A stretch of 64,000 nucleotides of DNA from Pyrinomonadaceae bacterium (GTDB lineage Bacteria > Acidobacteriota > Blastocatellia > Pyrinomonadales > Pyrinomonadaceae): the NCBI GenBank assembly GCA_019694345.1, contig JAIBCA010000088.1, forward strand, positions 1 to 64,000, read 5' to 3'. This document shows, piece by piece, positions 43,749 through 47,735 of the stretch (position 1 is the first letter of the stretch; each line of letters starts with the position of its first letter). The position numbers and the translations under genes were made by a program. The notes under the pieces were generated by a model, which was given only the letters and a program-made list of their open reading frames with translations, had not been told where the DNA came from and searched no databases.

Positions 43749-44405
43749 TTATTTTCGTTTGCCGACAAAAAGCGGTTCGGGCGTTTCACCAATGTTGTGA
43801 GTTATCGCTGCCTGGCCGAGATAATTCGAGATATCGATGTCGACTGTCTTGACGCGATCATTGCGTCCTTCAGAGAGAGCCTCGGAGATTGAAGGGTAAA
43901 GCAGCAAAGGAAGTTCGCCGCCGCCAAATTCGCTAAGTCCCGACAATTCAACCGGTTCTGGTTCGGAAAGAGTTATTATCCTTGCACCGGACATCCCAAA
44001 CCGTTGAGCACACACGGTATCGCGGCCTACGGGCAGCACGACCGCGAATTCGCGTCCGGAACCGTGCGTCAAAGCGATGGCCTCAAGTGCGGAGACCCGA
44101 CGAAGGCATTTGCGGGTGGCGGCGGCCAGCCCCATTGCCGTCGAGAGCCCGATCCTTATACCGGTAAAACTTCCCGGACCCGATGAAACGACGATCTCGT
44201 CGATGTCAGCGATCGACAGGTCATTTCTGCCCAAGATCTCATCGAGAGTAGGAAGCAGATCTTCGGCACGTGACTGAGCCGTTGCACCTACTGCACCGTC
44301 GATCCTGACACCAGCCGAAAACAACGATATGCTCCCTCCGCCTATGGCGGATTCGATCGCGAGAATGTTGTGACCTGTTTGTCGCATAAGTGTCTTTGCG
44401 GTCAC
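43749..44405 (-). CDS. tsaB: tRNA threonylcarbamoyladenosine biosynthesis protein TsaB
   Basis: The 218-residue ASKHA-fold protein, needed with TsaD and TsaE for t6A37, has ILAIESAIGGGSISLF, then VVSSGPGSFTGIRIGLSTAMGLAAAT, the family hallmark. GTG 44405 overlaps the upstream stop as GTGA; ATG 44387, six codons in, is an equally good start. It lacks TsaD's metal-binding His pair, as expected. It sits directly downstream of a nucleotidyltransferase of the peptide/polysaccharide region. Confidence 0.93.
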   Translation of the reverse strand: MTAKTLMRQTGHNILAIESAIGGGSISLFSAGVRIDGAVGATAQSRAEDLLPTLDEILGRNDLSIADIDEIVVSSGPGSFTGIRIGLSTAMGLAAATRKCLRRVSALEAIALTHGSGREFAVVLPVGRDTVCAQRFGMSGARIITLSEPEPVELSGLSEFGGGELPLLLYPSISEALSEGRNDRVKTVDIDISNYLGQAAITHNIGETPEPLFVGKRK

Positions 44406-45286
44406 CGTGCCGTTTTGACCAGACGTCCGATGGAATTTGCCGACCGCCTGAGGATATCGCCGATCTGATAGTGGATGCGAGTCGATGCGTCGAGACTGCC
44501 TTCCATGTCGATCGTTGCCTGGATCGGGTTAGGCGGCAACCGTTTCATTATCTGCTTGCAAAGGCCTATCGGATCGCGTTTGAACAGGTTTAGAGGCTGC
44601 AGACGAGTCGTGCTCCCCCATTCCCTTTCCAAACTGCGGATCAGCCACTTGGGCAGCGCCTTGGCCTCTTCGCTAAACGGGAGGCCGTCGATATCCAGGT
44701 CAAGGTACTTGTATGCCAGACCAACCGTATAGATTATCCATTTCCGGCGGACGGGTGAAACTGAATCAAGACATCTGCCCCAATCAAAGGCCGCAGATCT
44801 ATTTTTGACCGACCAGTAGATATCCCAGAGCCTGTGTCTGTGTGCTCCGCCGTCTGTAAGCCAGTGAACACAAACGATCCGCAGGTGGTCCTCTTCACGC
44901 AGAAAACGAATGTCAGTTCCCTCGATATTCACTGTTTGGGAGTTTGCCAGAAGGTCTGCCCAAGGGACCGTATCGAGATGCCGTAACTCCTTGTGAAGGT
45001 CTATCGGCTGAAAGCCGGTTGTGGCCAGCAGTTTGACCTCTTTTGCCCGCTCAAAGTCACCGGCAGAAACGGCGAGATCAATATCGGCGAATTTTCGCCA
45101 CTGATCGTCGGGATAAAGTCGTGCCGCTGCGATTCCCTTGATCACGATCGGGTCGATACCGTGTCTCTGAAACGTACTGACAACTGCGGCAGCCGTGGCC
45201 TGCTGAGAGAGTTTCTGGAGCACCCCCCAACGAAATGCGTCGTCCGCATGCTTTGAATCTGGTTCAAATGACCCGGTAAAAACCAT
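44402..45286 (-). CDS. nucleotidyltransferase-family protein (NTP_transf_5 type)
   Basis: The 294-residue protein has the fold's signature: IVIKGIAAARLYPDD with Lys50-Gly51, then FADIDLAV with the metal-binding Asp68 and Asp70, and a HWLTDGG block further on. Members occur near HprK-like kinases and PqqD-domain proteins, including in lasso-peptide clusters such as that of paeninodin, but the transferred group and acceptor are mostly unknown. Here it follows exactly such a pair. A strong terminator hairpin lies immediately upstream, with its T-run ending a few bases before the ATG, and no Shine-Dalgarno is visible. Confidence 0.85.
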   Translation of the reverse strand: MVFTGSFEPDSKHADDAFRWGVLQKLSQQATAAAVVSTFQRHGIDPIVIKGIAAARLYPDDQWRKFADIDLAVSAGDFERAKEVKLLATTGFQPIDLHKELRHLDTVPWADLLANSQTVNIEGTDIRFLREEDHLRIVCVHWLTDGGAHRHRLWDIYWSVKNRSAAFDWGRCLDSVSPVRRKWIIYTVGLAYKYLDLDIDGLPFSEEAKALPKWLIRSLEREWGSTTRLQPLNLFKRDPIGLCKQIMKRLPPNPIQATIDMEGSLDASTRIHYQIGDILRRSANSIGRLVKTAR

Positions 45287-45290
45287 AGAG

Positions 45291-45322
45291 AAAACGGGTA
45301 AAGGAGATCATTCCTTTACCCG
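45291..45322 (-). terminator. strong terminator/attenuator between the PqqD gene and the nucleotidyltransferase gene
   Basis: A perfect 11-base stem, CGGGTAAAGGA with TCCTTTACCCG, has a six-base loop. On the minus strand it is followed by TTTTCTC and then the ATG of the next gene. It would end most transcripts after the PqqD-Cys-tail gene and let some read through, raising that product relative to downstream genes. Confidence 0.85.
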
Positions 45323-45355
45323 CATGGAAAGTACCCCGTTTGAGGCCGTCAATTC

Positions 45356-45841
45356 CTATACGCAGACACCGCCGCCAGAGCAGTTTGAACCACATCCCGC
45401 AGGTACCTGCGGAGTGCAGCCAACGGGCTGTCCGGGATTGCAAGTACAAGACGTGAAAGCCAAAACACTTTGAGGAGCGACCAACGATGCAATAACCGGC
45501 AGGGCCACAACCGAAGCGAACCCGATCTTCTTCAGTACCTCACGTCTCGACTGGCCGGCGAACTTTGATTCGACCTTTTCCGCCAACAAGCCATTGGAAC
45601 TCAATTGATCGATCGCGAGCCAAATCAGGTCTTCCGATACTTTTGTTCCGGAATTTCGCTCAAATGATCGGACAATGTCCTCGACCGAGCTGTTTCCGTC
45701 GCAGGACCGCCACACCATAGCCGCTGTTTCATTCAAACAGTGAGCTTTGTTGCTGTCCATATCATAGACCAATACCTCACCCGGCATCTCCTGGACGACG
45801 AGTCCCGAGTGTCGGGCTACTGGTTTTTGGGAATTATTCAT
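45356..45841 (-). CDS. PqqD-domain protein with internal Tat-like segment and six-Cys C-terminal tail
   Basis: ATG 45841 is chosen because GGAGGAG lies five to six bases upstream; the product is 161 residues. Residues about 10-90 form a PqqD-like domain (LVVQEMPGEVLVYDMDSNKAHCLNETAAMVW, split by a turn; VEDIVRSF; IDQLSSNGLL), the fold that binds leader peptides of modified peptides. Residues 98-104 read SRREVLK, matching the twin-arginine consensus. A hydrophobic helix (107-128) follows, ending in a signal-peptidase-like VLA. The last 33 residues hold six cysteines (132, 134, 142, 150, 154, 160) among Gly, Pro and Ser. Leader-binding domain and candidate exported peptide are thus in one chain. 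Neighbours are an HprK-like kinase and a nucleotidyltransferase. Function is unknown; precursor, chaperone or anchored metal-binding protein are options. Confidence 0.8.
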   Translation of the reverse strand: MNNSQKPVARHSGLVVQEMPGEVLVYDMDSNKAHCLNETAAMVWRSCDGNSSVEDIVRSFERNSGTKVSEDLIWLAIDQLSSNGLLAEKVESKFAGQSRREVLKKIGFASVVALPVIASLVAPQSVLAFTSCTCNPGQPVGCTPQVPAGCGSNCSGGGVCV

Positions 45842-45889
45842 CATCTCCTCCAAAGTCGAAAAACACCAGAGCGACCTCAACATTGTACC

Positions 45890-46693
45890 TTAGTTATCAG
45901 TATTGTCAATGAAATGCAGTATCTTTTCTGCCGTTGCCTCAGCTTCGCCGCGGTCGGTTTTGACCATTGTTGCCCCTTTGACGGCATTTTTGAGGGTGAC
46001 AAGGGCAAACTCGCTATTTACCCTCATCGGGATAGTATGCGTGATAAGTTCAATAATACCGACACCGGGACTTACAGTCTCGGGCATCCACTCCGAATTT
46101 TTGCGATACTTTCCGAAGTAGATCAGGCCGACGCTCGCCGATCCGGTGCCCGCGTTCCCGCCTAATTCCCGGACATCAACGTCCGCCCGTATCGACGGGT
46201 CGCTGCGTTCCCTGATCGCGAGCGGCCTCGGAAACGGGTGTACCGTTCCATCTGCATCAAACAATGCGTATTCATCCGAAAAATAAACGGCACCCAATTT
46301 GACCAGTTCGGCCACAAGTGTCGTTTTGCCGCTGTGGCTTGTTCCGGGAATGACGATCGCTTTGCCCTTCCAAGAAACGACTCCGGCATGGACAAATACG
46401 ATATTGCTGGCGTGTTCGGCGACAAGGATGCGTATCCGTGAACCGATGTACTTAAGCAGCGACCCAAGATCGGGATTGTCGCCAAAATCCTCTCCGTCGA
46501 GTCCTGAACTATACGTGTCGCCAACTTTCGTGATGTGAAAATTATGGTAGGCAAGCTGTGGATCGATCTCAGACAAACGGCTGAGCAAGGAATAGTCGGC
46601 GACCTCCTTGACGCGTTCGATCGGCTCCGCTTCGTTGCTTTCGATGCAGACACGGACGCCAAACGATTCAAAGGCCCACCTAATGTCAGACAT
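45890..46693 (-). CDS. HPr kinase-related P-loop kinase
   Basis: The 267-residue protein has an HprK-like core: VHAGVV with His103, Walker A GTSHSGKT (117-124) and the following VYFSDEYALFD, where the family has a catalytic acidic pair (Asp140, Glu141). True HprK phosphorylates HPr on Ser46. This lineage lacks the HprK N-terminal domain and occurs with PqqD proteins and nucleotidyltransferases; in the paeninodin cluster a relative phosphorylates a peptide. ATG 46693 overlaps the end of the upstream transferase gene by 8 bp. The PqqD-Cys-tail gene follows 48 bp later. Confidence 0.85.
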   Translation of the reverse strand: MSDIRWAFESFGVRVCIESNEAEPIERVKEVADYSLLSRLSEIDPQLAYHNFHITKVGDTYSSGLDGEDFGDNPDLGSLLKYIGSRIRILVAEHASNIVFVHAGVVSWKGKAIVIPGTSHSGKTTLVAELVKLGAVYFSDEYALFDADGTVHPFPRPLAIRERSDPSIRADVDVRELGGNAGTGSASVGLIYFGKYRKNSEWMPETVSPGVGIIELITHTIPMRVNSEFALVTLKNAVKGATMVKTDRGEAEATAEKILHFIDNTDN

Positions 46694-47735
46694 TTGGATC
46701 GCCTCCGTCGAATAAGCATTTCCGAGCGTGACAAATGCCCAGTAAGATGACGGAAGACGCGACCGCCGCCGCCACTGACACATAGACAGGCACTCTTGGG
46801 TACTCGCCTGCTGACAGACCGGCGAGTACCGCAACAATTATGGAAAAAAGTCCGTAGATAATTGTTGTACGCTGATGCGAGTAACCTGAGATCACCAACC
46901 GCTGGTATAGGTGCTGACGGTGAGCCTGCCATACCTTTTCGCCATTGATCAAGCGACGGAAAAGCGTGAGGACGGAATCAAAAACAAACATCCAGACCAC
47001 CAACACACCAATGATCGCCGCAGCTCCGTTGTCATTGGTCTGACCGCCGTGAAAGATCAATGGCAGCGAGGCGAACGCGAAACCGAGAAACGCGCTCCCG
47101 GCGTCGCCCATAAAAATTCGTGCCGGCGACCAATTGTGCAACAGAAATGCGAGGGCCGCGAGAAGGATCGTTCCGCTTAGGACAAATGTCGCCGACGAAT
47201 CGGTTGCCAGGCCCGCAAGCATCCATCCAACGGCAGCGGCAGCGGCCTGAATGCCGGCGATGCCGTCGATCCCGTCCATGAAATTGTAGGCGTTGATCAG
47301 CCAGATGACCCATAGAAATGTCAACGGAATTCCGATCAGCCCAAGATCGAAAGGAGCCGTTGACCCCGTCGTCGCGACAAACGACAAATGACCAAGATCC
47401 GTCATAAGGCATGCCGCCGCCGCCGAGTGGGCCAAAAGACGCCAAACGAACGATATTGTGTAAATATCGTCAAGCCAACTGATCACGACGACTATCAGCG
47501 AACCGGCGAGAAAGCCCCACGAGATCTCAAGATCTACAAATAGCGATGCCAGAAGATAGGCCGTCATGATGACAATTGCGACGACCAGTCCCCCGCCGCG
47601 TGGTGTCGGTGCGGTGTGCGAACTGCGCTCATTGGGATGGTCAAGGACGCCTCGCTTAAGTGTCCACGCACGAAACCAACGCACGCCAAAATACGTCACA
47701 AGAAAAGATCCAAAAAATATCGTAAGTTCAAGCAC
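46686..47735 (-). CDS. WecA/WbpL-type undecaprenyl-phosphate sugar-phosphate transferase
   Basis: The 349-residue MraY/WecA-superfamily membrane enzyme has about ten helices. The start region (HPNERSSHTAPTPRGGG) is typical of WbpL/WecA rather than MraY. The Asp pair is in SWLDDIYTIS, NAYNFMDGIDGIAG and FMGDAGSAFLG are conserved, and a cytoplasmic His motif (HRQHLYQRLV) is present. It attaches a HexNAc-1-phosphate to undecaprenyl phosphate at the inner membrane and so starts the repeat unit built by this cluster. The donor is possibly UDP-QuiNAc/FucNAc or UDP-GlcNAc. Confidence 0.92.
   Translation of the reverse strand: MLELTIFFGSFLVTYFGVRWFRAWTLKRGVLDHPNERSSHTAPTPRGGGLVVAIVIMTAYLLASLFVDLEISWGFLAGSLIVVVISWLDDIYTISFVWRLLAHSAAAACLMTDLGHLSFVATTGSTAPFDLGLIGIPLTFLWVIWLINAYNFMDGIDGIAGIQAAAAAVGWMLAGLATDSSATFVLSGTILLAALAFLLHNWSPARIFMGDAGSAFLGFAFASLPLIFHGGQTNDNGAAAIIGVLVVWMFVFDSVLTLFRRLINGEKVWQAHRQHLYQRLVISGYSHQRTTIIYGLFSIIVAVLAGLSAGEYPRVPVYVSVAAAVASSVILLGICHARKCLFDGGDPNV

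Follow-up and report, generated by a model that had tools for sequence, protein, structure and literature searches.

A PqqD domain, a Tat-like signal and a cysteine-rich tail in one protein: a candidate peptide-modification system of an undescribed kind in Pyrinomonadaceae

Among ribosomally synthesized and post-translationally modified peptides (RiPPs), the closest described counterparts of the locus reported here include the phosphorylated and glycosylated lasso peptides paeninodin and pseudomycoidin. These are accompanied by an HprK-type kinase (PadeK or PsmK), a nucleotidyltransferase homologue (PsmN) and a PqqD-type RiPP recognition element (RRE); pseudomycoidin is phosphorylated by PsmK, and addition of a hexose to it requires PsmN, which is annotated as a nucleotidyltransferase (PMC9266682). 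RREs are normally either free-standing or carried on an enzyme (PMC7470986, PMC12710340). Similar components occur in a 64,000-nucleotide stretch of DNA from a Pyrinomonadaceae bacterium (contig JAIBCA010000088.1, positions 1 to 64,000; hereafter the window), in which a trio of minus-strand genes encodes an HprK-like kinase, a PqqD-Tat-Cys protein (Tat, twin-arginine translocation) and an NTP_transf_5 nucleotidyltransferase. Unlike the paeninodin and pseudomycoidin systems, this one has its RRE fused to the putative substrate, together with a Tat-type signal and a Cys-rich tail, and has no leader protease. Although the locus resembles a RiPP system and its enzymes are of the paeninodin/pseudomycoidin type, it does not qualify as a lasso system; the comparative evidence gives good support for regarding it as a peptide-modification system of a kind not described before. 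No description of PqqD-Tat precursors was found in the open-licence papers searched, either for PqqD with Tat or twin-arginine signals or for PF14907 and HprK-related kinases. A lasso peptide cluster was rejected because the leader protease (B2, Transglut_core3) is absent from the window's genome; the original prediction of this system had likewise held that the cluster is not a standard lasso one. No Asn-synthetase-like lasso cyclase was recognised on reading the neighbouring open reading frames, for which no profile search was made.

All of the elements named in the original prediction are present: the HprK-like kinase, the PqqD protein with its SRREVLK motif, hydrophobic segment and six-Cys tail, and the NTP_transf_5 protein. 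The span it had assigned to them, 45286-46693, encloses the gene for the kinase (45890-46693, 267 residues) and that for the PqqD-Tat-Cys protein, the likely precursor (45359-45841, 161 residues, stop codon at 45356-45358), but the nucleotidyltransferase gene (44402-45286, 294 residues) lies just outside. Translation of the PqqD-Tat-Cys protein likely begins at the ATG at 45841, which has GGAGGAG directly 5' and is preferred over a start at 45883. The trio sits inside an operon of the order WecA-HprK-PqqD-NTP-TsaB-RimI; the HprK-like gene shares 8 bases with the WecA-like gene upstream of it, and the NTP_transf_5 gene shares 4 bases with the TsaB gene downstream, indicating that the trio belongs to one operon.

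The three genes are inherited together. Of 119 genomes of the order, 90 have a PqqD-Tat homologue, and when only strong matches are counted, 79 of the 119 have both PqqD-Tat and HprK, four have PqqD-Tat alone, four have HprK alone and 32 have neither (Fisher P = 2.9e-20, which overstates the evidence because the genomes are related). The corresponding counts for PqqD-Tat and NTP_transf_5 are 78 with both, five with PqqD-Tat alone, five with NTP_transf_5 alone and 31 with neither; all three genes occur in 74 genomes and none in 30, and 32 of the 36 genomes without PqqD-Tat also lack HprK. Some exceptions fall at contig ends, as in G054, where the contig breaks off within the PqqD gene on the side on which the kinase would be expected. 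On order-level fragments, HprK and NTP_transf_5 are both within two genes in 24 of 60 PqqD-Tat genes, including those of L064 and L068, where the trio has a second context of TPR, FecR-like and large exported proteins. The HprK-PqqD-NTP order recurs in other classes of the phylum (L116, L118, L119, L123, L126 and L127), and a plasmid of Gemmatirosa (Gemmatimonadota) carries HprK, PqqD-Tat-Cys, a MauE-like gene and NTP_transf_5 in a row. The trio is thus not a chance adjacency, and is kept when the surrounding operon changes. The predicted co-occurrence of kinase and nucleotidyltransferase with the PqqD gene therefore holds, and the predicted position closing a polysaccharide operon is right for this locus, although the trio occurs in at least one other context.

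The PqqD domain occupies about residues 6-84 (45590-45826, minus strand) and scores 34 bits against Pfam PqqD (PF05402), above the gathering cut-off of 23.4. An AlphaFold2 model built on four sequences (the structure models in this study were built on three to four) covers residues up to 108 and gives three strands followed by three helices, with moderate confidence (pLDDT, the per-residue model confidence, of 70-83 in the domain). This beta3-alpha3 order is the one that defines RREs in a 2025 survey (PMC12710340). In a Foldseek search, leader-bound lasso B1 proteins ranked first, the RRE TbiB1 reaching a TM (template modelling) score of 0.75 by target length; a PDB sequence search with the PqqD profile gave weak PqqD matches only. 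The domain is thus predicted to have an RRE fold. It has this fold and a Pfam score above the cut-off in common with the RRE/PqqD family, from which it differs in sitting on the putative precursor. The same survey lists many long PF05402 proteins without other annotation and does not mention twin-arginine sequences (PMC12710340). Both proteins fall short of the cut-offs of the NCBIfam 'HPr-rel-A' system: the PqqD-Tat-Cys protein scores 17.6 bits against TIGR04353 (PqqD_rel_X; cut-off 35) and the kinase 60.6 against a cut-off of 200. All kinases tested are related to the TIGR04352 model of that system, whereas the TIGR04353 model, at 74 positions, has no room for a Tat signal or a tail.

The TIGR04352 (HprK_rel_A) match of the window's kinase has an E-value of 1.3e-16, and the model is matched by 16 of the 16 kinases tested. 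The kinase sequence includes the Walker A motif PGTSHSGKTT, FVHAGVV and SDEYA; across 16 homologues, H102, G122, K123, S139 and D140 are invariant, comprising the preceding His, the Walker A residues and the acidic SDE/SDD motif. A structural model matched HPrK/P and PEPCK structures in Foldseek, with moderate confidence (mean pLDDT 64), so that motifs and fold alike are those of an HPrK/P-like kinase. The nucleotidyltransferase belongs to PF14907 (79.6 bits, cut-off 31.2), and its KG, R, DxD, DxH and EDHL motifs are invariant in 15 homologues. PDB sequence searches with the kinase and transferase profiles gave no matches.

C-terminal to the PqqD domain, the protein continues with SRREVLKKIG, a hydrophobic segment and SVLA, followed by 33 residues with six Cys. 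The Tat-like signal, SRREVLKKIGFASVVALPVIASLVAPQSVLA, spans residues 98-128 (45458-45550, minus strand), and the variable Cys-rich tail, FTSCTCNPGQPVGCTPQVPAGCGSNCSGGGVCV, spans residues 129-161 (45359-45457, minus strand) and is the predicted mature peptide. The same arrangement characterizes the family, with a conserved SRRxxhhK after the PqqD domain, then AxA and then a fast-evolving tail. The RR pair is kept in 24 of 24 rows of alignment A3, whose rows were selected with the RR pattern, yet RR is absent from just one of 60 matches, a 62-residue fragment. An S/T/N-RR-x-[VILAM]-[ILV]-[KR] pattern is found in most of 90 homologues. TatC is encoded in the same genome, so that the sequence features of a Tat substrate, a twin-arginine motif, a hydrophobic region, AxA and an encoded TatC, are all found.

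Among 30 orthologues at the trio locus in the genus, mean identity is 62% in the PqqD part and 71% in the Tat segment, compared with 33% in the tail (23% without Cys). Exactly six Cys are present in the tails of 27 of these 30, and all but two tails start with SCxC. The original prediction had named the Cys spacing as a feature to test; the number of Cys and the SCxC start are conserved, but the spacing itself varies. In its favour, the SRR motif and Cys tail are kept in close relatives as the rest of the tail changes. Between close pairs, non-synonymous change per site (pN) is 0.25 for the tail and 0.036 for the leader, about seven times faster in the tail, and across 90 diverse homologues 87 tails are Cys-rich and 86 have at least six Cys. 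Together, the identities, pN values and Cys counts describe a Cys-rich peptide that changes quickly while the leader preceding it is conserved; a conserved leader, a variable core and linked enzymes are the pattern of a RiPP precursor. A knottin-like C-C-CC-C-C spacing is present in nine of the 90 tails, the window's own not among them: seven relatives (L064, L065, L068, L116, L118, L119 and L120) have a compact framework of about 27-34 residues, and two longer G034 tails give a looser match. Matches of these tails to Pfam (animal families) and the PDB are weak and based on Cys spacing only.

In two genomes a single kinase accompanies dozens of PqqD-Tat copies. G034 has 44 profile matches (about 40 complete) over many contigs with one strong HprK and one NTP_transf_5, which lie side by side at the usual TsaB locus without an intervening PqqD gene; G007 has 40 matches (about 35 complete) and one strong HprK. 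Because there are dozens of copies per kinase, the PqqD proteins are better read as substrates than as subunits. Many dispersed precursors with a conserved leader served by one enzyme are also a feature of the ProcA/ProcM lanthipeptides, from which the present system differs in leader, enzyme and chemistry. In G034 (L054, L055), PqqD-Tat genes repeatedly adjoin genes for an extracytoplasmic function (ECF)-type sigma factor and for a large Ser/Thr kinase that carries WD40-like repeats, as if they had been duplicated together with a regulatory module; copies in L057 and L060 likewise have kinase genes of the same cluster beside them. Neighbouring genes at some copies hint at further maturation steps. 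In G007, two PqqD-Tat-Cys genes are interleaved with two genes for 2-oxoglutarate-Fe(II) (2OG-Fe(II)) oxygenases (L058:4101-6496). MauE, a protein thought to aid disulfide formation, is fused to thioredoxin beside PqqD-Tat genes in G360 and G007 (L117:6761-8311, L058:606-2099), and the MauE-like protein of Gemmatirosa is likewise beside the PqqD-Tat gene (L135:8548-9471). A MauE homologue is also found beside precursors with at least eight Cys among the decRiPPter candidates from Streptomyces (PMC7794033); the text consulted does not mention a PqqD-Tat leader for them, and here MauE is found at some loci only.

The most probable explanation, to which a probability of about 0.58 may be attached, is that the PqqD-Tat-Cys proteins are a family of peptides with an RRE-Tat leader, modified in the cytoplasm by the kinase and transferase and exported through Tat. 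From the linkage, co-inheritance, fold and motif assignments, the contrast of leader and tail and the many precursors per kinase, we infer the identity of the substrate and the following order of events. The N-terminal half would provide a cytoplasmic RRE domain at which the maturation enzymes dock. By analogy with pseudomycoidin, which is the best guide to the chemistry of the enzyme pair but not proof of it, the HprK-like kinase would phosphorylate the C-terminal peptide, most likely on Ser/Thr at the mature start, and the NTP_transf_5 protein would add a sugar or nucleotide; on the same analogy, the phosphorylation, nucleotidylation or sugar linkage of the tail proposed originally is plausible. 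The Tat system would then export the peptide, signal peptidase would cut after AxA, and the cysteines would form disulfides.

A Ser or Thr is found among the first three residues after the predicted cleavage site in 78 of 86 tails, compared with 42.5 of 86 expected when the tails are shuffled (at most 57 across 2000 shuffles) and 37 of 95 signal-like sequences in a crude control set from the loci examined. The Ser/Thr at the start of the mature tail, T130 and S131 in the window, is thus a candidate acceptor, as judged from sequence. The enrichment could come partly from cleavage-site preference, and the homologues are not independent.

Several observations weigh against this explanation. Many dispersed PqqD-Tat copies have no enzyme gene nearby, and the profile search gave no strong NTP_transf_5 match in G007, so the transferase is either not always needed or works elsewhere. 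The Pfam TAT_signal model matches only one of 40 members, which may reflect the internal position of the signal; none of the possible acceptor residues is strictly invariant; and the co-occurrence test counts related genomes as independent. Among distant homologues, L124 has no tail, ending in EAYD two residues past AxA, and the L129 tail has two Cys only. Together with one apparently decayed copy in L062, these are the only cases in which the tail is missing or poor, and the outcomes that the original prediction would have taken as signs of chance adjacency, loss of the tail or SRR motif or separation of kinase and PqqD genes, were not seen in close relatives. The gene for the tail-less L124 protein (L124:2652-3053) has an HprK-like gene directly downstream.

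Among other explanations, the tail may be an undecorated, exported disulfide mini-protein, with PqqD and Tat serving folding and export control only and the two enzymes acting on another target, e.g., polysaccharide or a carrier lipid. This would suit the genus-level position at the end of a polysaccharide operon, as well as the Cys tail and MauE-thioredoxin neighbours that point to disulfides, but is unlikely given that kinase and transferase track the PqqD gene, not the polysaccharide genes, across contexts, and that the kinase is missing from nearly all genomes without PqqD-Tat (32/36). The classical PqqD protein acts as a chaperone by binding a peptide encoded apart from it (PMC7470986), and the hydrophobic segment could serve as an anchor, such that PqqD-Tat might be a membrane-tethered chaperone with an uncleaved Tat/transmembrane segment, delivering another peptide to the kinase, with the tail as a structural cap. 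The roughly sevenfold faster non-synonymous change of the tail and the precursor-like pattern of as many as some 40 distinct copies for one kinase make this improbable; a separate short precursor was not noticed either, though no systematic search was made.

The WecA-like and glycosyltransferase genes upstream, and an O-antigen-ligase-like gene (assigned by reading the sequence) near the second context, would accord with a modified peptide that acts as a surface anchor, a sugar-phosphate on its tail linking it to the polysaccharide of the neighbouring operon. Since the trio is found in at least one context besides that operon, this idea is weaker than that of peptide modification, and with many copies far from any polysaccharide gene and a tail that diversifies faster than expected of a link, it is very improbable. 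A degenerate lasso or PQQ cluster is hardly credible even though paeninodin-type lasso peptides are accompanied by the same enzyme types, as the genome has no Transglut_core3 protease, no lasso cyclase was recognised beside the trio, and the PqqD gene, besides being a fusion, is conserved across many genomes.

The WecA-like sugar-phosphate transferase gene (46686-47735, minus strand; Pfam Glycos_transf_4) adjoins the trio in the polysaccharide context only, and is probably context and not part of the system. PADLOC gave no match to defence systems. Elsewhere, phage terminase-like genes lie directly downstream of the PqqD gene in two genomes, at L039 (6788-8671) and L040 (10315 onward), in L039 between the PqqD and transferase genes, a possible prophage insertion site. 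In L063 (8599-10879), the PqqD and transferase genes are separated by a second HprK-like gene of divergent sequence. An apparent PqqD-NTP fusion in L130 was rejected as a gene-calling artefact, as the open reading frame overlaps a PqqD match but has no PqqD sequence in its own frame.

Taking the preferred explanation of a modified, Tat-exported peptide family further, these proteins may tentatively be regarded as a new class of ribosomal peptides, in which the RRE is on the precursor, dozens of dispersed precursors share one kinase-transferase pair, an N-terminal Ser/Thr becomes a phospho-sugar or phospho-nucleotide, and the folded peptide leaves via Tat; in such a scheme the RRE might, in addition, delay export of a precursor that is not yet fully matured. 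The mature peptide might, as a guess, be secreted and diversifying, with neighbours or the cell surface as its target. If the explanation is correct, the usual RiPP logic would be reversed, with the recognition domain on the substrate instead of the enzyme, and peptide maturation would be linked to Tat export. The Acidobacteria and at least one other phylum would then possess a large, diversified family of exported Cys-rich peptides, some with knottin-like frameworks, and the HprK-like/NTP_transf_5 pair would gain a natural substrate.
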